A stretch of 64,000 nt of DNA from contig NZ_KB900620.1 in the NCBI RefSeq assembly GCF_000379025.1, positions 240,802 to 304,801 of the forward strand, written 5' to 3'. Below the pieces are notes generated by a model that did not search any database, had not been told where the DNA came from, and saw nothing but the letters and a program-made list of their open reading frames with translations. The translations under genes were made by a program, and so were the position numbers. Each line of letters starts with the position of its first letter. Positions within the stretch are counted from its first letter, which is position 1. The stretch comes from Orenia marismortui DSM 5156 (GTDB lineage: Bacteria > Bacillota > Halanaerobiia > Halobacteroidales > Halobacteroidaceae). Positions 27,687-45,210 of this stretch are shown one piece after another.

Positions 27687-27717
27687 ATAAGCATATCATC
27701 AAAGATGATATGCTTAT
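27687..27717 (-). terminator. Terminator after aprB
   Basis: 14-base arms (27687-27700 / 27704-27717) with AAA loop, followed by TTTTTTT on the minus strand. The stem overlaps the aprB stop codon and ends the sulfur assimilation operon. Confidence 0.88.
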
Positions 27718-28049
27718 AAATTTGAATTAAACCATAACTTATTTTGAATATTAAACTCCTCTACAGAACCATCTAATTTATTTAACTTCCAGACTATCTT
27801 ATCGCCCAAGTCTTGTGCCTGTAAAGTAGAACCTCTCCCACCAATTTCCACTGGTAAATACATTTCGATAGCTTGCCTTGGGCATTCTTTAACACAAGCA
27901 GCACAGTCCCAGCATTCCCGTTTGTCCCTTATTTCAGCTTGATTATCTTTATTCTTATATATTAAATTACCAGGACAAACTCTCATACAACGGGATTCTT
28001 TACTATTTCCACACCCATTACATAAACTTTTATTAATTTTTACTGACAT
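27714..28049 (-). CDS. aprB: AprB-like ferredoxin subunit of adenylylsulfate (APS) reductase
   Basis: 111 residues with two [4Fe-4S] motifs: CNGCGNSKESRCMRVCP and CWDCAACVKECP. The following C-terminal stretch (about 62-111) keeps the AprB-type GGRGSTLQAQDLGDKIVWKL tail region (shown in part), shorter than the about 150 residues of sulfate reducers. It transfers electrons to the FAD of AprA, with which it overlaps by 17 bases. It is the last gene of the sulfur operon. A generic ferredoxin is less likely because of the tail and the aprA partner. Confidence 0.83.
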   Translation of the reverse strand: MSVKINKSLCNGCGNSKESRCMRVCPGNLIYKNKDNQAEIRDKRECWDCAACVKECPRQAIEMYLPVEIGGRGSTLQAQDLGDKIVWKLNKLDGSVEEFNIQNKLWFNSNL

Positions 28050-29727
28050 CTAAATCACCTAACTTTATATGATCTCTTTCAATAATTTTAATCTTGTCAA
28101 GCTCTGGATCATAAATAGAATTGACAAATTTAAACCAATTTTTATCATCTTTATTTGGATAATCAACTCTCTCTTGATAACATCTCCAACGAGTCTCTTT
28201 TCTATATAGTAGATGTTCCACTAGCACTCTAGCTACATCCACCCGATCAATAACTTCATGTAGATTCATCAACTGATGAATATCTTTGGCTCTTGCTCTA
28301 GTTAAATCTTCTTTTAATATTTTAAGCTCTTTTCTAGCTCTAATAAGCTTTCCTTCATCCAAACGATAATTACTGCTTAAGCCACCAGCATATTCATCCA
28401 TAATCTTTTGTAATCTTTCTTCGAGATCTTCAGGAAGAAAACCTTCCGATTTCTCTAAAGGAGAGAATACTCTATCCAGCTCCTTATCTATAATTTTATC
28501 ACTAACTTCTACATATTCTAGATTGCCAATATAATTCAAAGCATCAAGCCCTGCTATCTCACCTTCAACCATAGCACCAGTAACATACTTTTTAGGTGCT
28601 CCTCCAGCTACATCTCCAGCTGCATATAAACCTTCTAAGGTACTCCTTCTTTTACTATCAACCCAATAGCCTGATTGAGAATGTCCCCCTACAATATAGG
28701 GTTCTGTTCCATAAATCTCAACTGGATTTTGATTAGGTTCCACCTCACTATCAGCCCATTTCAAGACAATCCCTGGAGACATATTTAAAAATGATCGCTT
28801 TAAACGATTATTACTATCATCATTTAAATGAGTAACATCTAAATAGCAAGGCCCCTTCCCCCGCTGATTCTCATATAGGGTGGCATGTAATCTATACGGG
28901 GTAGAATTCTTCTTATACTGCTCTTGATACTCTAATCCATCTCTATTAATTTGTTTCGCCTTAAAACTTTGAGCCAGAACACCTGTAGGAGAAATAGTAT
29001 CCTTCGTTCTTAACGCAATAAACCTCATTTCAAAGGTAGTCATCTCTGCTCCAGCCCTAATACCCATAGCATATCCTGCTCCAGTATTAAAAGGAGAATA
29101 CCACATCTTATGTCTCGCTGCCCCTGGATTATTAGGTTTATAAATTCCAGAAGCTCCTCCTGTAGCACAGATAACAGCCTTAGCTTGAATAACATAAAAC
29201 TTATTCTCTCTTACTGAAAAACCAAAGGCTCCGCTAACTTTGTTATCTATTAGTATATAATTAGTAATATTAACCCTATTTAGAACCTCTACTCCACTCT
29301 CTTTAACAGCTTTAGCCATAATCGGCTTAATATGCTCACCATTAATCTTAACACTCCGCTTACCCTTAGCTACATAATTACCAACTTCATCCTTCAAGAA
29401 GGGTAATCCCCATTTTTCCAGCCAATTGCTTGCTTTATTTAATCCCTGTGCTAGAGTATAAACTAGATCATCTCTGACTAATCCTTCTGAATCATTCTTA
29501 ACATAATCCAAAAAATCCCTTGGAGTTACTCCAGGATTTAAATAGGCATTAATTGCACTAATTCCTGCTGCCAAACAACCACTCCGCTTAATATGGGCTT
29601 TGTCAACTATTAGAACATCGCTTTTAGGGTCTTCTTCCTTTATCCTAGCTCCAGCATAACATCCAGCAGCTCCACCACCGATGATTAAGATATCAGTATT
29701 CAATTTAACGATTTCGATATTTTTCAT
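28033..29727 (-). CDS. aprA: AprA-like flavoprotein subunit of adenylylsulfate (APS) reductase
   Basis: A 564-residue FAD protein of the succinate dehydrogenase/fumarate reductase fold. FAD loop LIIGGGAAGCYAGAR and the AprA-like KRSGCLAAGISAINAYL are near the N terminus; EMRFIALRTKD, the YIVGGHSQSGYW region and LYAAGDVAGGAPKK follow. AprA-type enzymes reduce APS to sulfite plus AMP. In sulfate reducers this is dissimilatory; here the neighbours (Sat, siroheme sulfite reductase, MetY) show an assimilatory role. The open frame extends 34 codons further up through a repeat, but AAAGGGTGAT fixes the start at ATG 29727. About 100 residues shorter than Desulfovibrio AprA. Confidence 0.8.
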   Translation of the reverse strand: MKNIEIVKLNTDILIIGGGAAGCYAGARIKEEDPKSDVLIVDKAHIKRSGCLAAGISAINAYLNPGVTPRDFLDYVKNDSEGLVRDDLVYTLAQGLNKASNWLEKWGLPFLKDEVGNYVAKGKRSVKINGEHIKPIMAKAVKESGVEVLNRVNITNYILIDNKVSGAFGFSVRENKFYVIQAKAVICATGGASGIYKPNNPGAARHKMWYSPFNTGAGYAMGIRAGAEMTTFEMRFIALRTKDTISPTGVLAQSFKAKQINRDGLEYQEQYKKNSTPYRLHATLYENQRGKGPCYLDVTHLNDDSNNRLKRSFLNMSPGIVLKWADSEVEPNQNPVEIYGTEPYIVGGHSQSGYWVDSKRRSTLEGLYAAGDVAGGAPKKYVTGAMVEGEIAGLDALNYIGNLEYVEVSDKIIDKELDRVFSPLEKSEGFLPEDLEERLQKIMDEYAGGLSSNYRLDEGKLIRARKELKILKEDLTRARAKDIHQLMNLHEVIDRVDVARVLVEHLLYRKETRWRCYQERVDYPNKDDKNWFKFVNSIYDPELDKIKIIERDHIKLGDLDVSKN

Positions 29728-29775
29728 ATTCATCACCCTTTGAAAATGTACACATTTTCGAATGTATAATGTAAA

Positions 29776-29803
29776 ATTGATAATTGATAATTGATAATTG
29801 ATA
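29776..29803. repeat. Four tandem copies of ATTGATA upstream of aprA
   Basis: A 7-base unit repeated four times without change (29776-29803), followed by ATC. It belongs to a longer stretch with TGTATAATGTAAAATTGA words resembling the TGTACAATTGA elements. Copy number may vary between strains. Confidence 0.7.
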
Positions 29804-29949
29804 ATCAAAACACAAATTTCACCGATCACTATAAAATCCTAAATGACTAAATCACATCATATTTTTTTGAATTAAGTTTTGAAAAACTTAATCTTTAATT
29901 ATACACTCTAGATTTTACATTATAAATTATTAAACTCTCCAAGCCTTTA

Positions 29950-30131
29950 GAAACTTGTAGACGATAATCGCTTATAGAACTTTAGCTCCCTTTAGGTCAA
30001 CGTCCCTACGAGTCCTCCGGACTCTTCGTGCAGAGAAATAAAGTTTCCCTCTTTTTAGAAACTTTATAATCACGAAGAGTTTCTAAAGAAACTCGTAGAC
30101 GATAATCGCTTATAGAACTTTAGCGATTATC
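29950..30131. repeat. Compound palindromic repeat element between sat and aprA
   Basis: A 37-base direct repeat with one mismatch occurs at 29950-29986 and 30088-30124. Between and around the copies are nested inverted repeats: GAGTCC/GGACTC (30010-30024), ACTCTTCGTG/CACGAAGAGT (30021-30030/30071-30080), AAAGTTTC/GAAACTTT (30040-30065), GAGTTTC/GAAACTC (30077-30094) and GATAATCGCT/AGCGATTATC (30101-30131). The last overlaps the sat stop codon. The region is visibly richer in G and C than its surroundings and holds no gene. Confidence 0.75.
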
Positions 30132-31278
30132 TCGCCATCCCTCTTATCAACACATCTGCCACCTCTGGTCTAGTCATCTCTTTAGGCGGCTTCTTTCCTT
30201 CCCTTAATAAGCCACGTACTTTAGTACCACTTAAGAAGATATGAGTTTCTTGACTATGAGGACATGTCTTCGCAGTAGCCATACTTTCACAATCTTTACA
30301 ATAAAACGCATGTTCAAAGCATAATGGTTCAATACCTATCTCTTCAGCCTTAAAGTTATCAAAGATCTCTTGCGCTTCATATGTACCATAATAATCACCA
30401 ACTCCAGCATGGTCACGCCCTACAATAAAATGGGTACAGCCATAATTTTTGCGACACAAGGCATGAAATACCGCCTCTCTTGGTCCTGCATATCTCATTG
30501 CTGCCGGAAACACAGCTAAATCCGTCCTGTTTTGAGGGTAAATTTTATTCATTACTACTTCATAGCTTTCAATTCGATATTCTACTGGAACATCAGTACC
30601 CTTAGTCTCGCCTACTAATGGTGTTAATAGTAAGGCATCACAAATCTCTAAAGCACACTTCTGAATATATTCATGAGCCCTATGAATTGGATTTCTAGTT
30701 TGAAATCCTACAACTCGCTTCCATCCTTGCTCTTCAATTAATTCTCTAACATCCTTTGGATCTAATCTATACTCATTAAATAGCTTATGCTTAATTCTTC
30801 TTAATAATGAGATCTTACCACCTAATAGAACTTTTCCACGTTCATAAATTTTAGCTACTCCTGGATGTTCAGTATCTGTAGTTTTATATACCCACTCAGC
30901 TTCCTTCTCTTGATTATATTCATATTTATCTTCCAAATGTAAAACTGCATATACAGTTCCTTCACTATCAGTTAAAGCAACATCTTGACCTGTCTTCAAA
31001 CTCTCTGACTCTTCTTTACTAACTCCTAATACAATAGGAATAGTCCAAGCTAAACCATTAATTAAATGCATCTCTTCAACAACTTTAATATAATCATCCT
31101 GATTCATAAATCCTTCTAGTGGACTATAAAGTCCAATAGCTATATTCTCTGCCTCTGTTAGATCACGTACACTTAACTTTAACTGTGGCATCTCAATAGC
31201 TTTCTTCAATAAATCTTCACGTTCTTTTCCTTCTAATACTCTATTTACTAACTTTCCACCATGAGCTTCAATTGACAT
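30127..31278 (-). CDS. sat: ATP sulfurylase (sulfate adenylyltransferase)
   Basis: A 383-residue single-domain Sat. The active-site motifs [14 protein letters not shown] (with HxxH) and [13 protein letters not shown] are intact, and a four-ligand zinc site is suggested by [15 protein letters not shown]. It makes APS from sulfate and ATP, the first activation step, feeding AprAB and/or CysC. It is transcribed leftward after cysC and DUF2061 with a 137-base gap. AGGAGG precedes the ATG. It is of the dimeric/homo-oligomeric Sat type rather than the CysDN GTPase type. Confidence 0.95.
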
Positions 31279-31415: not shown

Positions 31416-31652
31416 TTAGTTAGCAGCTAATTCTTCCATTTCATGCTCAATATCATTACCTTCTCTTAAAGTTATTCTTTCCCAAATGCCTTCATGAAGA
31501 TAGTAGATAGCAATTTTAGAAATTATCTCGACCAAAGCTGCAGAACCAGCCAACTTCAATTCTCCAGTTAAGAAATAGACAATTAGCATGGTAGTTGTTG
31601 TAGCAGTTATTCTCCAAGTAACCGCCTTCAACAATCGTAATTTTTTAATCAT
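31416..31652 (-). CDS. DUF2061 small membrane protein
   Basis: 78 residues. Two hydrophobic segments (about 10-27 and 33-52) with RLLKAVTWRITATTTTMLIVYFLTG-type sequence (motif R-x-x-K-x-x-x-W-R) and the C-terminal YYLHEGIWERI mark DUF2061. The family is often found next to sulfate-activation genes such as cysC and may help sulfate import or membrane placement of the pathway; no activity is proven. Its start overlaps the cysC stop by 8 bases, so translation is coupled. Confidence 0.82.
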   Translation of the reverse strand: MIKKLRLLKAVTWRITATTTTMLIVYFLTGELKLAGSAALVEIISKIAIYYLHEGIWERITLREGNDIEHEMEELAAN

Positions 31653-32238
31653 TTATAATTACCCCCAATACCTTCTTTACTGAATCAGCCACTGATAATT
31701 TAGTAGTATCTATAATCAACTCTGAATTTTCTGGAACTTCATAAGGAGCAGATATTCCAGTGAAATTCTTAATTTCCCCACTTTTAGCCTTCTCATATAA
31801 TCCTTTAGGATCACGTTCAGCACAAGTATCTACATCTGCCTTAACATAAACTTCAATAAAGTTATCTTCTCCTGCTCTTTGTCGAGCAAAATTTCTTATC
31901 TCTTGATAAGGAGAGATAAAAGAAGCCAATGTAATCAATCCTGCATCCTTAAATAATGCTGCCACTTCAGCAATTCGACGAATATTCTCATTTCTATCCT
32001 CAGCAGTAAATCCCAAATCGGAATTTAAGCCATGGCGTACATTATCGCCATCTAGACGGTAGACAGCCTTACCTAATTTAATTAACTCTTTCTCAACCTC
32101 TACAGCAACAGTAGATTTGCCAGCTCCTGAAAGTCCAGTAAACCAAACAACCAATCCCTCTTGATCTAAATTATCACATCTATCTTCATAACTTACCTTT
32201 CCTTCATGCCAAACTATATTTTTGTTCGATTCCTCCAT
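31645..32238 (-). CDS. cysC: APS kinase
   Basis: 197 residues. P-loop GLSGAGKST (about 37-45), RLDGDNVRHGLNSDLGF and FISPYQEIR are the standard APS kinase motifs. It phosphorylates APS to PAPS. No PAPS reductase or sulfotransferase is present in this window, and the neighbouring AprAB uses APS directly, so PAPS here may serve sulfation or PAP metabolism elsewhere. An in-frame extension to 32301 runs through a repeat and is rejected; GGGAGGAG places the start at ATG 32238. Confidence 0.93.
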   Translation of the reverse strand: MEESNKNIVWHEGKVSYEDRCDNLDQEGLVVWFTGLSGAGKSTVAVEVEKELIKLGKAVYRLDGDNVRHGLNSDLGFTAEDRNENIRRIAEVAALFKDAGLITLASFISPYQEIRNFARQRAGEDNFIEVYVKADVDTCAERDPKGLYEKAKSGEIKNFTGISAPYEVPENSELIIDTTKLSVADSVKKVLGVIIND

Positions 32239-32261
32239 ACTCAAACTCCTCCCGTTTATTA

Positions 32262-32402
32262 ATTTACAATTGACAATGTACAATGCATAATTAAAAAGCA
32301 ATTATTAAAAGATTTAGTACTAGATTTCTTTTAATCACTCATTAAATATTTGTATTTCAACGATTTTACTTGACAATTGTAAATTATACATTGTACATTA
32401 TT
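32262..32402. repeat. Inverted-repeat element of the TGTACAATTGA family between metY and cysC
   Basis: One end reads AATTTACAATTGACAATGTA, the other ends TTGTAAATTATACATTGTAC; the two are near-complements separated by about 90 bases. It matches the element at 11637-11740. Its inner edge touches the metY stop codon. Confidence 0.65.
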
Positions 32403-33612
32403 ATTTAAGTGCTTGTGCAAAATCTGCTTTAAGATCTTCTATATCCTCAATTCCAACGCTTACTCTAATTAAATCATCATAAGCACCTAATGCCTCTCTC
32501 TCTTTTACTGTATTTTTAGCATAGATTGTAGAGGCGGGATGGATAACCAGTGACTTAACATCACCAATATTAGCTAAATTATAGAAATATTTTAATTTAT
32601 TTATGACTTTAAAAGCCTTATCTTTACTAGCCACTCTTAAGGTCAACATTCCACCAAAGTCATTTTTTAATAGATTTTTAGCCCGCTCATTATATTTATT
32701 ACTCTCTAAACCTGGATAATTAACCTCTTTTACCTTAGGATGTTCTAACAAAAAATTTGCCAACTCCAAAGCATTATTAGAATGCTTTTCCATCCTTAAA
32801 GCCAAAGTAGGAATCCCTAACTCATTTAACAAAGAAGTTAGCGGAGATGAAGAAGGTCCGAAATCTTTAAATGTCTCTCCTCTTGCTTTAACAGTAAAAG
32901 CTAACTTTCCAAATCTTTTATATTCAGAGAAGTTAGCAAAAATAGTCCAGTCAAAATTTCCACCATCTATAATTACCCCTCCGATAGAATTAGCAGTACC
33001 ATTGATATACTTGGAAGTAGAATGAATTACAATATTTGCACCCAATTCTAATGGCTTAATTAAAGCTGGAGTTGTCATTGTACTATCAACAATTAGTGGG
33101 ATATTATTCTTCTCACATACTTCAGCTATACCTTTAATATCTGGGATATCTAATTTAGGGTTACCTAATGTCTCTAGAAAGACAAACTTAGTTTTATTAG
33201 TTATTAACTTAGCAATATCATCTCGTTCAACCCCTTGACTAAATCGAGGAGTAATACCATACTTTTGATAATTTTTAAATAGATTATAAGTTCCTCCAAA
33301 TAAAGAACTAGTTGCTACAAACTCATCACCTGCCTCTAATAATGTTAATGTAGCTGTAGAAATAGCTGCCATCCCTGAAGCAGCAAGTATAGACTGTTTT
33401 CCTCCTTCCAAACTAGCTAATTTATCTTCTAGAGCTTTAATTGTTGGATTACTAACCCTGGAATAGGCATATCCTAAAGCACGATTCTTAAATACTTTCT
33501 CCAGTTCTTCTGCATCTTCATAAGCAAAGGAGTTACTTAAATAAACTGGCGTATTAGTAGCTCCATATTGATCTTTTATTTTTAAATTTACTAACTTCGT
33601 TTCAAAGTTCAT
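32401..33612 (-). CDS. metY: O-acetylhomoserine sulfhydrylase (MetY type)
   Basis: A 403-residue PLP enzyme of the Cys/Met metabolism family. SRVSNPTIKALEDKLA and the PLP-lysine region HSTSKYINGTANSIGGV are diagnostic of MetY/MetZ. It replaces the acetyl group of O-acetylhomoserine with sulfide or, in organisms with the carrier-protein route, with sulfur delivered as a protein thiocarboxylate, giving homocysteine. It follows sulfite reductase and the hcyS-F-D-like genes, the same set as known for the thiocarboxylate-dependent pathway. AGGAGGAG precedes the ATG. It is part of the SAM-riboswitch operon. Confidence 0.9.
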   Translation of the reverse strand: MNFETKLVNLKIKDQYGATNTPVYLSNSFAYEDAEELEKVFKNRALGYAYSRVSNPTIKALEDKLASLEGGKQSILAASGMAAISTATLTLLEAGDEFVATSSLFGGTYNLFKNYQKYGITPRFSQGVERDDIAKLITNKTKFVFLETLGNPKLDIPDIKGIAEVCEKNNIPLIVDSTMTTPALIKPLELGANIVIHSTSKYINGTANSIGGVIIDGGNFDWTIFANFSEYKRFGKLAFTVKARGETFKDFGPSSSPLTSLLNELGIPTLALRMEKHSNNALELANFLLEHPKVKEVNYPGLESNKYNERAKNLLKNDFGGMLTLRVASKDKAFKVINKLKYFYNLANIGDVKSLVIHPASTIYAKNTVKEREALGAYDDLIRVSVGIEDIEDLKADFAQALK

Positions 33613-33854: not shown

Positions 33855-36185
33855 CTATACCTTCTTTACCTTTAAACTATAAGATCCATCTTCTCGCTTC
33901 TCTTTAGATAAAACCTCATGCCCTTCAGAGATTAAACTCTGGGGAACATTAGCTATTGGCTCCCCTTCGTCTAAATAAATATCTAATATATCTCCTGAAT
34001 TTAGAGGTGCTAGGGCCACTTTAGCTTTTACAAAATTCATTGGACATTTTACCCCTCTTAAATCTGCCACCTCGCTATCTAAGATATTCTTATCTTCGTT
34101 ATTATTATCACTAGAAACTTCTTCTAGCTCAAACTCTAACTTAGCATTTAAGGAATTAAATAAATACTCTACTCTTTCAATTAAATTATTTATTTTATTT
34201 TGATAAGAGAATAGATTATCAATATCTCCCAATTTATAATCTAATGCAGCATTTAAAGTTTCATTATAATGATTATCTACTAAATTCTTATCAATAAACT
34301 CGGTTTTAAATTCTGCTAAAATAACTCTATCCTTATCTGTATCTATACCTCTTACAGCCAATAATGCTCTAGATGAATTAATGATAGCTTTATAAAGTTC
34401 ATCATCATCTTCTTCTTTAATCGCTTTCTTATAATTAGATTTAGCAGTATCGATATCCAATTTAATAATATCCATTACACCTGCTCCACATTCTCCAGGC
34501 CCTCTACCTGCTAAGGAAAAGTCTTCTGTTTTACCCCAATCCTTATAAATATCTGAATCTTCTTCATAAGTAGGAATTGCAATAAATTCCTCAGCTAATT
34601 CAACTATCTTAGTCTTTCCACCCTTTTCTAGGTAAGTATTAAAATTAACTCGGTTATAATCTCCATCTTCAGCCAATAATCTAGCCAATTCTGCTAGAAA
34701 ATCTGGTATACGCTTAGCAGGAATATCTACAGCTGCGTCTCCATACTTACTATTACCTTCTTCTACGTTTCCTCCTAAGAATAATGCATAGTAGGGAAGC
34801 AATCTATCATTATGCCGCTTAGCCTTACCTTCAAAACCAAGATTAGCAATGATATGCTGTCCACAAACATTTGGGCAACCACTAATATAGATTTGAGGTA
34901 ATACTGATTGTAACTTGTCATCTAAAGTCATTAATCTTTCTCTGATAGCCTCTGATAAATTAGGCGAAATACATAATCCTAATTTACAAGTCGATGCACC
35001 TTTACAAGAAACAGGCATTGTTCCCATATTAGCCACTACTAGATTAGGATTGATTTGATTAATTTTCTCGATTAGCCCTTGTAAATCTTCTCCTTTAATA
35101 CCTCTAATCAATAATCCTTGTTTGATAGTAGTTCTAATAGATAACTCACTATTATCTAATAAACCTAATAATGAATTCAACTCATCATAACTAATATCTC
35201 CATTCTCCATTCTCAGCTCTAAAGAATAGTAGCCTTCTACCTTCTCTGTATAAAGATAATCTACATTCAAATCATTTTTTTCTCCCTTACCTGTTCTTAA
35301 TTCTTCATAACTATTTAACTCTTCAACCTCTAAATCTTCGGCTAATACTTCAGCTAAGTACTCTTTGTATTTATTGACAAACTCTTTATCACCAAGCCTC
35401 TTTCTTACAAAGCGTAATCTAGCCCTATGCTTATTACTACGATCACCATATTCATCAAAGAACCTCTTAATAGCCTCTGCTATATGGAAGATCTTATCCT
35501 CTTCTACGAAGTCTTCTAAGACTATCCCCAATTCTGAGGAGCCTCCCATTCCCCCTCCACCATATACTTTAAAGCCTCGTTGACCATCTTTCTTAGTAGC
35601 TATAAAACCTAGGTCATTTAATGTAGCTAAAGAATCATCTTTAGGGTCAGAGGAGAAGGCTATCTTATACTTTCTTGGTAAATTAAAAGAAGAACGTGTC
35701 TTAATTAAATATTCTGTTAACGCTAAGTTATGAGGTGTTGTATCAAAAGCTTCCTCAGGGTTAACACCTGCTCTAGCAGAGTTCAAGATATTTCTAACGG
35801 TATTACCTCCACCACCTCGTGGGCTTAAGCCTGCCTCTAATAGCTTGAATAGTACTTCTGGGGTATCCTCAATCTTAAGCTGATGAAGCTGTATATCCTG
35901 TCTAGTGGTAATATGAAGATAAGCATTCCCATACTCTTTACTCAATTGATTTAATACCTTTAACTGCTCCTTAGTCACTACTCCACCAGGAATTCTAACT
36001 CTTACCATATACCTCTCTTTACCTGATTTATAACCTCTTTGGCTATAAATTCCCATTGGAACTCTACGCCCTTTAAACCTAGCTTCATCTAAATCACCAT
36101 CTACAAATCGTTCAACTAAATTCGGATAATTATTCGTATCTTCTTTCACCGTAGCTGAAATATTAAAAATAGGTCGATTACTCAT
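33855..36185 (-). CDS. sir: Siroheme sulfite reductase fused to a C-terminal TusA domain
   Basis: 776 residues. Two ferredoxin-like half-domains and two siroheme/Fe-S domains are arranged as in NirA/Sir. The cluster ligands are in CKGASTCKLGLC and SGCPNVCGQH. The siroheme protein proper ends near residue 680; after an acidic linker, the last 75 residues are a TusA/SirA domain with DLRGVKCPMNFVKAKVAL, keeping the acceptor cysteine but with MN in place of the usual xP. It reduces sulfite to sulfide; the fused TusA may accept the sulfur as persulfide and hand it to the carrier protein. The electron donor is likely ferredoxin. A GTG at 36194 is in frame, but AAGGAAGGTG fits ATG 36185. Confidence 0.92.
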   Translation of the reverse strand: MSNRPIFNISATVKEDTNNYPNLVERFVDGDLDEARFKGRRVPMGIYSQRGYKSGKERYMVRVRIPGGVVTKEQLKVLNQLSKEYGNAYLHITTRQDIQLHQLKIEDTPEVLFKLLEAGLSPRGGGGNTVRNILNSARAGVNPEEAFDTTPHNLALTEYLIKTRSSFNLPRKYKIAFSSDPKDDSLATLNDLGFIATKKDGQRGFKVYGGGGMGGSSELGIVLEDFVEEDKIFHIAEAIKRFFDEYGDRSNKHRARLRFVRKRLGDKEFVNKYKEYLAEVLAEDLEVEELNSYEELRTGKGEKNDLNVDYLYTEKVEGYYSLELRMENGDISYDELNSLLGLLDNSELSIRTTIKQGLLIRGIKGEDLQGLIEKINQINPNLVVANMGTMPVSCKGASTCKLGLCISPNLSEAIRERLMTLDDKLQSVLPQIYISGCPNVCGQHIIANLGFEGKAKRHNDRLLPYYALFLGGNVEEGNSKYGDAAVDIPAKRIPDFLAELARLLAEDGDYNRVNFNTYLEKGGKTKIVELAEEFIAIPTYEEDSDIYKDWGKTEDFSLAGRGPGECGAGVMDIIKLDIDTAKSNYKKAIKEEDDDELYKAIINSSRALLAVRGIDTDKDRVILAEFKTEFIDKNLVDNHYNETLNAALDYKLGDIDNLFSYQNKINNLIERVEYLFNSLNAKLEFELEEVSSDNNNEDKNILDSEVADLRGVKCPMNFVKAKVALAPLNSGDILDIYLDEGEPIANVPQSLISEGHEVLSKEKREDGSYSLKVKKV

Positions 36186-36204
36186 ACTTGTCACCTTCCT
36201 TTCA

Positions 36205-36618
36205 TTAAATTAATTCAATCTCTATTTGAGTAACTTTCTTCTGTTCTTTAATACTAAAAGCCTTTAATACTGGCTCTTCATCCTTTAATGATAAGATAAA
36301 ATAAATTGCTTCTTCATCATAAGCCAATCTCTTATCCTCTTCCGATGGACGAGAAGGGGTAAAAGGATGGGAATGATAATTTCCAATTAAATCATAGCCC
36401 TTATTTCTAACTTCTTTGACTACTGCAAACTGCTCTTTTGGATCCATTGTAAAGTGTTCTGCTGAAGAATCTAGATTGGTCATAGTATATACTTTCTTAA
36501 CCTCAATCTCTTCATCAGCTATCACTCCAGCCACTAAACCACAACCCTCATTTGGGAATTCATCCCGAACATGCTCCAATAATTGCTGATATAACTTTTC
36601 TGGCAATTTAATTATCAT
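36205..36618 (-). CDS. hcyD: JAMM/MPN+ metalloprotease (HcyD/Mec-type) acting on the sulfur carrier
   Basis: 137 residues, family M67. The zinc motif is complete: the catalytic Glu in NEGCGLV (about residue 24) and HSHPFTPSRPSEED (H-x-H-x10-D). Related proteins cleave after the Gly-Gly of sulfur-carrier proteins, either to free cysteine (Mec+) or to trim extra residues before activation (HcyD). The carrier here ends GGGANV, so trimming of ANV is the expected task. It overlaps the E1-like gene by 4 bases (ATGA) and precedes sir by 19 bases. Confidence 0.88.
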   Translation of the reverse strand: MIIKLPEKLYQQLLEHVRDEFPNEGCGLVAGVIADEEIEVKKVYTMTNLDSSAEHFTMDPKEQFAVVKEVRNKGYDLIGNYHSHPFTPSRPSEEDKRLAYDEEAIYFILSLKDEEPVLKAFSIKEQKKVTQIEIELI

Positions 36619-37421
36619 AATTCACAAACCCCTTGCTCATAATCGATTAATTCTGTTATTTCTGGGTCATCACTACAAATCCCACAGTTTTCTCTCTTAT
36701 TTAAGTTAATCTTTCTAAACTTCATCTTCAATGCATCATAGGTCAGTAACTTGCCAGTTAATAATTCACCTTTTTTTAGAATATACTTAATAGCCTCTGT
36801 TGCTTGGATAGTTCCAATCACTCCACCCATAACTCCTATAACTCCTGCTTCCTTACAAGAAGGGACTGAACCAGGCTTAGGTGGTTGAGGAAAGATACAT
36901 CTATAACATGGTGTCTCGCCTCCTGGAACTACAGTTGTGGTCTGACCTCCAAACTTAATAATTCCTGCATGTGAGAAAGGCTTATCTTCCATTACACAAG
37001 CATCATTGATTAAAAATTTAGCCGGGAAGTTGTCTGTCCCATCTATTACAAAATCATATTCTCTAATAACCTCTTTGATATTTTGGGAGGTTAGATAGTA
37101 ATCATAGGTTTTAACCTCTACATCAGGATTCATCGCATTGATCTTCTCTTTAGCCGATTCTACCTTTAACTTACCTACATCAGGTGTATGATGTAAAACT
37201 TGACGCTGTAGATTTGATAACTCTACTCTATCTGCATCTACCAAGCCAATCTTACCAATACCAGCCGCTGCCAAAAACTGTGCTGCTGGCGTTCCAAGCC
37301 CTCCAGTTCCTATAATCAAGACTGAAGCATTTAATAACTTATCTTGCCCTTCTACACCAACATCCTGTAAAATAATATGCCTTGAATATCTCTGTAACTG
37401 TTCTTCACTAAAATCATACAT
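36615..37421 (-). CDS. hcyF: ThiF/MoeB/HcyF-type E1-like adenylyltransferase for the sulfur carrier
   Basis: 268 residues. The ATP-binding GTGGLGTPAAQFLAAAGIG, the R-finger ELSNLQRQ, and DGTDNFPAK are intact, as are two CxxC zinc pairs, CYRC and CGIC. No rhodanese domain is fused, unlike MoeZ. It adenylates the carrier's C-terminal glycine so that sulfur can be loaded. The ATG at 37421 lies inside the last codons of the carrier gene; the Shine-Dalgarno sequence GGTGGTGGAG is formed by the carrier's Gly-Gly-Gly codons. The alternative start GTG 37433 is less likely. Confidence 0.9.
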   Translation of the reverse strand: MYDFSEEQLQRYSRHIILQDVGVEGQDKLLNASVLIIGTGGLGTPAAQFLAAAGIGKIGLVDADRVELSNLQRQVLHHTPDVGKLKVESAKEKINAMNPDVEVKTYDYYLTSQNIKEVIREYDFVIDGTDNFPAKFLINDACVMEDKPFSHAGIIKFGGQTTTVVPGGETPCYRCIFPQPPKPGSVPSCKEAGVIGVMGGVIGTIQATEAIKYILKKGELLTGKLLTYDALKMKFRKINLNKRENCGICSDDPEITELIDYEQGVCEL

Positions 37422-37626
37422 TTGCTCCACCACCCATGAAGTATAGAAACTCTACCTTATCGCCAGACTTTAGAGCTTTATCAGAGAAATTATCTCGCTC
37501 TAAAATTTCGCCATTCAACTCTACTGATACCATATCTGGCATATCTACATCTTCTTTTAGCAATAATTCACTTACTGTTAATCCTTTTTTTAACTCTACT
37601 TCTTTACCATTAACTTTGATCTTCAT
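37414..37626 (-). CDS. hcyS: ThiS/MoaD-like sulfur-carrier protein with C-terminal extension (HcyS-like)
   Basis: 70 residues, the ubiquitin-like fold of ThiS/MoaD: MKIKVNGKEVELKKGLTVSE, VSVELNGEI, GDKVEFLYFM, ending GGGANV. The Gly-Gly is not terminal; three residues must be removed before activation, matching the JAMM protease encoded two genes on. HcyS of the thiocarboxylate-dependent homocysteine pathway also needs such trimming, while ThiS and MoaD normally do not. First gene after the SAM riboswitch; good GGAGTG site. A thiamin or molybdopterin role is unlikely because no thi or moa genes are near. Confidence 0.88.
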   Translation of the reverse strand: MKIKVNGKEVELKKGLTVSELLLKEDVDMPDMVSVELNGEILERDNFSDKALKSGDKVEFLYFMGGGANV

Positions 37627-37769: not shown

Positions 37770-37792
37770 CATTATATACAACGGCATATAAT

Positions 37793-37895
37793 CTCATCTT
37801 TCAATACATAAGTATTGCTGGAATTAGCACCTTTCCCAAATAGGGATGGTTGCTGGGCTTCATTGGGCCAGTCCCTCCACCTCTCTTGATAAGAG
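37793..37895 (-). ncRNA. SAM-I riboswitch with an extra P5 hairpin
   Basis: The minus strand has GAGAGGTGGAGGGACTGGCCC, AGCAACC and AAAGGTGCTAATTCC in order (each quoted in part). P1 is CTTATC paired with GATGAG (one G-U). Between P4 and the P1 3' half there is an additional hairpin, CAATAC-TTAT-GTATTG, as in yitJ-type aptamers. It is followed by a terminator and the sulfur-carrier/sulfite reductase operon. Confidence 0.95.
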
Positions 37896-37955: not shown

Positions 37956-38879
37956 CTATTCTGCTTTAAACAATGTAGTACTTAAATATCTCTCTCCAGT
38001 ATCTGGAGCTATAACTACAACCCGTTTTCCAGCACCTAATTCTTGAGCAACTTTGATAGCTGCTGCTATAGCTGCTCCACAAGAAATACCAACAAGAATT
38101 CCTTCTTCTACAGCTAATTTACGTGCCATCTCCATAGCTTCTTCATTGTCAATCTGTTTAACCTCATCTAAGATATCTGTATTTAGAACATCAGGAATAA
38201 AACCTGCTCCAATTCCTTGAATCATATGTGGTCCAGGATTACCTCCACTAAGTACAGGAGATCCAGTTGGTTCTACTGCTACAATCTTAATATCTGAAAT
38301 TTCTTCTTTTAAGACTTCTCCAGTTCCAGTAACAGTTCCACCAGTTCCAACACCTGCTACAAAAGCATCCAAGTTACCATCAGTAGCTTCTATAATCTCT
38401 TTAGCAGTTGTGTTTCTATGTACCTCTGGGTTAGCTGCATTCATAAACTGCTGTGGCATAAAATAATCATCATTAGCATCTGTTAATTCCTTAGCCTTAT
38501 CTATAGCACCAGGCATCCCTTTTTCTCCAGGAGTTAATAAAATTTCTGCTCCAAATGCTTTCAATATCTTTCTTCTTTCAATACTCATTGTATCAGGCAT
38601 TGTTAAAATTACTTTATAGCCTTTAGCAGCACCAACCATTGCTAAGCCAATTCCAGTATTCCCACTAGTAGGTTCAATAATTGTACCACCTGGCTTCAAC
38701 AAACCTTCTTTTTCAGCACTTTCAATCATATTAAGAGCAATTCTATCTTTAACACTACCACCTGGATTGAAAGATTCCAATTTAGCATAAACATCTGCAG
38801 CACCTTCAGGCACTAATCTATTTAATTTAACAAGCGGTGTTTGACCAATCAATTCAGTAATATTATTTACAACTTTCAT
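37956..38879 (-). CDS. cysK: Cysteine synthase A (O-acetylserine sulfhydrylase)
   Basis: 307 residues. PLP-lysine site [14 protein letters not shown], the substrate loop [12 protein letters not shown] and the GTGGTVTG phosphate clamp are intact; length is typical. It makes cysteine from O-acetylserine and sulfide. The promoter at 38938-38966 overlaps the end of the DUF389 gene. The SAM riboswitch follows its stop codon by 60 bases, so cysK itself is free of SAM control while transcripts continuing into hcyS are attenuated. Confidence 0.95.
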
Positions 38880-45059: not shown

Positions 45060-45103
45060 ATACAAGACAATAAGATATAATAATCAATATGTTTATCTTG
45101 CTA

Positions 45104-45172
45104 CCCCGTAGTTGATTAGTTTCCGGCTAATCGGTAGAAACTTTCAAGCCAATTCTTGAAATTATACGGAAT
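45104..45172 (-). ncRNA. Purine (guanine-type) riboswitch upstream of NCS2 paralog B
   Basis: The minus strand reads TTCCGTATAATTTCAAG, GTTTCTACCGATTAGCC and AACTAATCAACTACGGGG. P1 pairs TTCCGTA with TACGGGG. The base before the conserved UAC is C (the position-74 equivalent), so guanine or hypoxanthine rather than adenine should be the ligand. Confidence 0.94.
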
Positions 45173-45210
45173 TATTATTAATTGTGCTTTAAATTCACTA
45201 ATTTTTATTA

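Follow-up and report, generated by a model that had tools for sequence, protein, structure and literature searches.

The route by which sulfur passes from sulfite reductase to carrier proteins is an unsettled question. It is raised by a gene of Orenia marismortui DSM 5156 in which a siroheme sulfite reductase (Sir) is joined to a TusA-type sulfur-transfer domain: is the sulfur released as sulfide, or is it handed over directly by the chain that produces it? The gene lies in a stretch of 64,000 nucleotides of contig NZ_KB900620.1 (positions 240,802 to 304,801), referred to below as the window. Coordinates are those of the window unless a locus number (L) is given, and all window features named are on the minus strand.

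Gene and Domain Architecture

The interval 33855..36185, for which an earlier note on this DNA had claimed a Sir-TusA fusion, was found to be one gene running exactly from ATG to stop; the plus strand of the same interval contains many stops. The ATG is residue 4 of a GTG-started open reading frame of 779 amino acids (33855..36194), whose translation was used as numbering reference, and is preceded by an AGGAAGG ribosome-binding-like site. A frameshift artefact or chance fusion was ruled out by the 78 distinct single-chain homologues.

The AlphaFold2 model, obtained with an alignment of 62 sequences, had a mean pLDDT of 90.1 and a pTM of 0.83. The domains follow each other as Sir core (residues ~14–537, 34584..36155), a low-confidence loop with the sequence GRGPGECG, a HEPN-fold helical domain (residues ~571–682, 34149..34484), a short acidic linker (residues ~689–707, 34074..34130) and TusA (residues 708–779, 33858..34073). 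The linker had previously been placed straight after the siroheme domain, the intervening HEPN domain having been overlooked.

The Sir core was matched by the Pfam families NIR_SIR_ferr and NIR_SIR and, on structure comparison of the model, by NirA of Mycobacterium tuberculosis with a Z score of 35.9. The four cluster ligands C397, C403, C440 and C444 (Cx5C...Cx3C) are invariant in all 78 fusions. No NCBIfam equivalog was reached by the core, the best being the NirA family (221 against a cut-off of 523). The sulfate-assimilation operon around the gene points to sulfite as the substrate. The same context disfavours nitrite reduction as the main role, and dissimilatory sulfate reduction was rejected, since the core fits NirA-type enzymes far better than Dsr.

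The HEPN assignment of the helical domain comes from its homologues and from structure: of 39 homologues, 13 matched family PF05168 (the best with 4.4e-6), the window protein itself being without a match, and the modelled domain aligned with sacsin HEPN (Z 11.1), TT1696 (10.7) and AF0298 (10.2), helical bundles being a class of fold that scores easily. Sequence searches of this domain against PDB chains returned nothing meaningful. The HEPN RNase motif Rx4-6H is absent, R609 being conserved and followed by no conserved histidine; from its sequence, the domain is predicted to be structural, not a nuclease. The linker proper comprises about 15–20 residues, with pLDDT below 50 at residues 696–706, and varies freely from 13 to 50 residues in relatives.

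Cys569 (codon 34488..34490) lies at the junction of core and HEPN domain, in the motif GRGxGEC, and is present in 77 of the 77 fusions that cover this position. The surrounding block (residues 561–570) has a mean pLDDT of 63, as of a loosely predicted loop.

The TusA Domain and Its Subfamily

Residues 711–778 matched TusA PF01206 with 59.5 bits (cut-off 28.6). The modelled fold is the expected beta-alpha-beta-alpha-beta-beta, with strands at 708–711, 736–741, 760–766 and 772–777 and helices at 719–728 and 745–756, and its structural matches (Z 11–13 overall) include YeeD (13.1) and Escherichia coli TusA (11.9). The acceptor cysteine that had been proposed in GVKCPMNF, Cys717 (codon 34044..34046), is thus borne by a TusA domain on both Pfam and structural grounds, and it is kept in 78/78 distinct fusions, as are Pro718 and Asn720, even where identity to the window protein falls to 34%. 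The residue between the last two varies among M, L, I and F (position 719). The last proline of the canonical CPxP is replaced by Asn in all 78 fusions and by N or T in stand-alone relatives, so that membership of TusA is claimed here for a subfamily only; CPMN, previously remarked on as a departure from CPxP, is the window's form of the subfamily signature CPx[N/T]F.

When 398 genomes of the phylum were searched with a TusA profile, stand-alone copies were found; those examined were taken for the most part from the head of the match list, so that the fractions below are not an unbiased estimate. The 12 stand-alone CPx[N/T]F proteins examined (L263-L272, L274 and L276) are encoded with a small sulfite reductase of 285–331 amino acids, which bears a ferredoxin insert, and with carrier genes in an operon; in 11 of the 12, the TusA gene directly follows the reductase gene. 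One examined stand-alone copy with CPxP had neither the small reductase nor carrier genes. A CPVN TusA was also seen in a genome of Campylobacterota, where its gene adjoins an E1 gene with no Sir.

A decayed operon was also observed (L046:7732-9053, minus strand, G011), in which aprA is truncated and TusA is left by itself as an intact remnant (CPMN) directly after a heavy-metal-type P-type ATPase gene; the Sir core and HEPN domain are gone.

Genomic Context

The genes on the same strand are ordered, in the direction of transcription, as cysK, a SAM riboswitch, a ThiS-like carrier, E1, a JAMM protease and Sir-HEPN-TusA, followed by a MetY-like enzyme, APS kinase, DUF2061, ATP sulfurylase, AprA and AprB. 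The carrier, which the earlier note had taken to be downstream of the fusion, is therefore encoded upstream of it.

The carrier (37414..37626) is a HcyS-like precursor with a C-terminal tail, ending YFMGGG-ANV; carriers of nearly all relatives likewise end in MGGG plus a short variable tail. The E1-like adenylyltransferase (HcyF-like, 36615..37433) matched ThiF with 287.4 bits and no other Pfam domain, and is thus without rhodanese. The JAMM/JAB metalloprotease (HcyD-like, 36205..36618) matched Prok-JAB with 91.3 bits, and its motif HxHx7Sx2D is intact in 77/77 homologues. The MetY-like PLP enzyme (32401..33612), of the O-acetylhomoserine sulfhydrylase subfamily, had TIGR01326 as best match (437.4 bits, below the cut-off of 495.1); the genome has two strong matches to PF01053, of which this is one. 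Cysteine synthase (cysK, 37956..38879) reached TIGR01139 above its cut-off, with 476.9 bits.

The aptamer of the SAM riboswitch (37791..37895; RF00162, 96.4 bits, gathering score 44.4) separates cysK from the carrier gene, a position that links the carrier unit with methionine and not with cysteine in the window and in one congener (L037), where the riboswitch was also found; it did not reach the gathering threshold in 13 other loci scanned.

Sulfate assimilation is represented by APS kinase (cysC, 31645..32301), ATP sulfurylase (sat, 30127..31278), the sulfite-forming APS reductase alpha subunit (aprA, 28033..29829; NF005331, 881.8 bits) and an aprB-like ferredoxin (27714..28049), which has Fer4 domains, adjoins aprA and forms a homologous pair with it in relatives. 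No PAPS reductase domain was matched in the genome, which makes AprAB the probable source of the sulfite. An AprAB-type APS reductase (27714..29829) stands in an assimilatory operon alongside APS kinase. The gene of a DUF2061 membrane protein (31416..31652) lies inside this run, and the family recurs near Sir in loci of Planctomycetes and Campylobacterota. Elsewhere in the window, two purine-permease-like genes are neighbours, and a purine riboswitch (45089..45189) lies upstream of one of them.

Judged by its genes, the tail of the carrier, the motif of the JAMM protease and the riboswitch, the locus very probably encodes a protein-thiocarboxylate methionine pathway of the HcyS type.

Distribution of the Fusion

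The 78 distinct fusions come from about a dozen phylum-level groups. The closest named relative of the window protein is that of Orenia metallireducens (87%), and the fusion is present in 10 of the 12 searched members of the order, its own genome aside, and in part of the class. A scan of named genomes yielded it from Halanaerobiales, Clostridia, Planctomycetota, Lentisphaerota, Kiritimatiella-type bacteria, Hydrogenedentota, Omnitrophota, Goldbacteria, Deferribacteraceae, a Spirochaetes MAG, a deltaproteobacterial MAG and Helicobacter saguini. A scan of Campylobacterota added 10 further fusions; one genome with Sir-HEPN-TusA is presumably that of Wolinella succinogenes, and its carrier ends in GGGA, as would be expected for HcyS-Ala.

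Further domains of the system are joined in some relatives. JAMM-Sir-HEPN-TusA forms a single chain in two lineages (L081:9569-12220 and L090:9572-12361, both plus strand), where the JAMM domain is fused in front and the chains have 884 and 930 amino acids, respectively. Other fusions join ThiS to E1 and E1 to JAMM. At six loci (L062, L063, L064, L103, L108 and L179) E1 has the carrier as its N-terminal domain (MGGGAF...), and the JAMM protease may there have to cut the carrier free from its own E1.

Linkage to Carrier Genes

The earlier note had suggested that fusions belong with hcyS-like genes and that a survey would bear on this. The survey agreed with the suggestion: ThiS, E1 and JAMM genes all lay within 6 kb on the same strand in 54 of 61 fused cases, versus none of 30 unfused relatives, each of which had at most one of the three. 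To be counted, a gene needed flanks of at least 3 kb on its upstream and 2 kb on its downstream side, and genes cut by contig ends (L068, L112, L122, L132, L149/L175) were left out or recognised as cut; the missing half of one such gene was located on another contig (G186). Fisher's test gave p 1e-17, a value uncorrected for kinship. On a Sir tree of 103 rows the fused state changes five times, and carrier genes follow it in about three pairs and in the opposite direction never; with five changes, a sign test on independent pairs was not significant. With kinship counted, the evidence from co-occurrence is thinner.

Every unfused lineage with readable flanks is without carrier genes; the unfused lineages comprise the Pelosinus-type, two Planctomycetes, the Campylobacter-type, Akkermansia and the NirA group. 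The Campylobacter-type chain ends in GIGEEN-stop at the place of GRGxGEC, so that Cys569, HEPN, TusA and carrier genes are all absent together. Its sister on the Sir tree, Helicobacter saguini (L119), has kept the fusion and has no linked carrier genes, as if in this pair the carrier system had been lost first. Fusions without linked carrier genes were also found at L097 and at L102 with E1 only. Prok-JAB was not matched in Frackibacter or Helicobacter saguini, both of which have the fusion. Frackibacter is an exception in appearance, as it has an unlinked metY-E1-ThiS(MGGGN) operon.

GEC is kept near the C-terminus in two unfused proteins. One, from Akkermansia (L121:9998-11824, plus strand), has no HEPN-TusA and ends soon after GSGECGAG in a cysteine-rich tail, CCIPGCVC, which is perhaps another way to catch sulfur. 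The other, from Methylomirabilota (L128:5429-7267, plus strand), is a NirA-like Sir without TusA, has TGPGECAA at its very C-terminus and is encoded near cysK and a JAMM gene.

Proposed Route of Sulfur

We read the gene, with a probability of roughly 0.6, as the assimilatory sulfite reductase of an HcyS-type pathway with its sulfur acceptor fused on, an account in which we infer every chemical step, above all the passage of sulfur via Cys717 and Cys569. Sat and AprAB, judged from their families, would convert sulfate to sulfite, which the siroheme core would reduce. The sulfur would be taken off siroheme by a cysteine, possibly at first Cys569 of the flexible GRGxGEC loop, and would then be borne on Cys717 of TusA as a cysteine-bound (per)sulfide, the TusA domain swinging on its linker between active site and E1. 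The JAMM protease would trim the carrier tail (GGG-ANV), E1 would adenylate the exposed glycine, and TusA would hand over sulfur for the carrier thiocarboxylate in place of the rhodanese domain of other E1 enzymes. MetY would use the carrier thiocarboxylate with O-acetylhomoserine, and the protease would then free homocysteine. The relay by TusA from siroheme to the E1-bound carrier is itself the probable function of the domain, given the invariance of the cysteine, the rhodanese-less E1 and the gene linkage.

It is unlikely, although it is the best of the competing explanations, that free sulfide from Sir attacks the carrier adenylate and that HEPN-TusA is a docking module for E1 and carrier in which Cys717 has no sulfur chemistry. 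Bisulfide from Sir is reportedly the donor proposed for Wolinella, and it is evident from the fusions of JAMM to Sir and of ThiS to E1 that physical association is favoured in itself. Besides, a cysK equivalog is often near the fused gene in relatives and may use free sulfide, which counts against direct handover as well as in favour of docking. However, Cys717 is kept in every fusion while much of its domain varies, its equivalent is kept in the stand-alone CPx[N/T] proteins, and Cys569, which is invariant too, was lost together with TusA.

The domain might instead act on the input side, bringing a cysteine-bound thiosulfonate, derived from thiosulfate or sulfite, to the siroheme, by analogy with the binding of thiosulfate to YeeD and archaeal TusA. 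Two reports describe TusA proteins as able to carry thiosulfonate (PMC4175335, PMC11073785), and YeeD is among the nearest solved structures. This is very improbable, as the operon itself makes sulfite from sulfate via Sat/AprAB, a CPVN TusA occurs with E1 where there is no Sir, and the presence of TusA tracks the carrier genes. Very improbable too is service to another acceptor with incidental presence in the operon: canonical TusA acts in tRNA thiolation and in Fe-S or molybdenum cofactor supply, and a few genomes have the fusion and no linked carrier genes, but the linkage just described, the three further TusA copies that the same genome as the fusion encodes separately, all with canonical CPxP, and the unlinked operon behind the apparent Frackibacter exception speak against it.

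For the preferred reading, a relay by TusA, the oxidation state of the sulfur matters. A thiol and sulfide give no persulfide without an oxidant, and a persulfide on TusA would therefore require release of sulfur at the S0 level. Such capture might leave little free sulfide to escape and might, as the earlier note suggested, protect an anaerobe. In a 2026 study (PMC13188885), four assimilatory sulfite reductases were reported to yield zero-valent sulfur directly; three of them were assayed with added hemin and none is said to be a fused form, so the study is a precedent and not a proof. The same study names DsrC as the protein that accepts S0 from DsrAB, and it reports that no evidence has so far linked DsrC to assimilation (PMC13188885). 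By analogy, the fusion could tentatively be regarded as a one-chain assimilatory counterpart of DsrAB-DsrC, in which sulfite would undergo four-electron reduction after which Cys569 and Cys717 would trap the S0 in a persulfide or trisulfide for transfer to the E1-bound carrier, sulfide never being obligatory for methionine formation from sulfate; we hold this to be possible, and less likely than the relay as such.

Relation to Known Systems and Significance

The HcyS pathway was reportedly characterised in Wolinella succinogenes by Krishnamoorthy and Begley in 2011, who are said to have named bisulfide from Sir as the sulfur source for carrier thiolation; TusA may accordingly not be obligatory in vitro. 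The Wolinella system (HcyS, HcyF, HcyD, MetY and Sir) resembles that of the window in its tailed carrier, E1, JAMM protease, MetY and Sir, and the genome presumed to be that of Wolinella encodes a Sir-HEPN-TusA chain like the window's. It differs in the carrier tail, of three residues (ANV) in the window and one in Wolinella, and in the sulfur donor, reportedly free bisulfide in the Wolinella model and TusA-borne sulfur in the present proposal.

The likeness to DsrAB-DsrC, a siroheme reductase with a cysteine-bearing partner able to take sulfur of intermediate oxidation state, is an analogy only. In DsrC, which is a protein of its own, the two cysteines share a single C-terminal arm, whereas the candidate acceptor of the window is a fused TusA and the second cysteine is on an internal loop; DsrC was not among the structural matches listed for the model. 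With YeeD/TsuB and canonical TusA, the window domain has the fold and the CP motif in common, but it carries CPx[N/T]F in place of CPxP and is linked to sulfite reductase and E1.

The study of Iyer et al. 2006 (PMC1779556) describes an operon class 4e with ThiS/MoaD-like, JAB, rhodanese-less E1, SirA, sulfite reductase and O-acetylhomoserine sulfhydrylase genes, proposes that SirA replaces rhodanese and that sulfur ends on the carrier, and records a ThiS-Sir fusion in actinobacteria. SirA figures there as a neighbourhood protein, and the passages on this class do not mention a Sir-TusA fusion, the HEPN domain or the second cysteine. The tie of SirA/TusA to carrier operons is already known (PMC1779556). 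No paper on a Sir-TusA fusion was found among the open-licence papers searched. What appears to be new is Sir-HEPN-TusA as a common form of the Sir of the HcyS pathway, together with the invariant second cysteine (Cys569), the joint loss, and the CPx[N/T] signature of fused and free forms.

The recurrence of the fusion beside carrier genes suggests direct handover of sulfur and not plain release of sulfide. The fusion, one protein in which two cysteines are invariant, provides a candidate acceptor, and its presence in the genome taken to be that of Wolinella suggests that the Sir of the founding pathway is worth re-examining in the light of its TusA domain.
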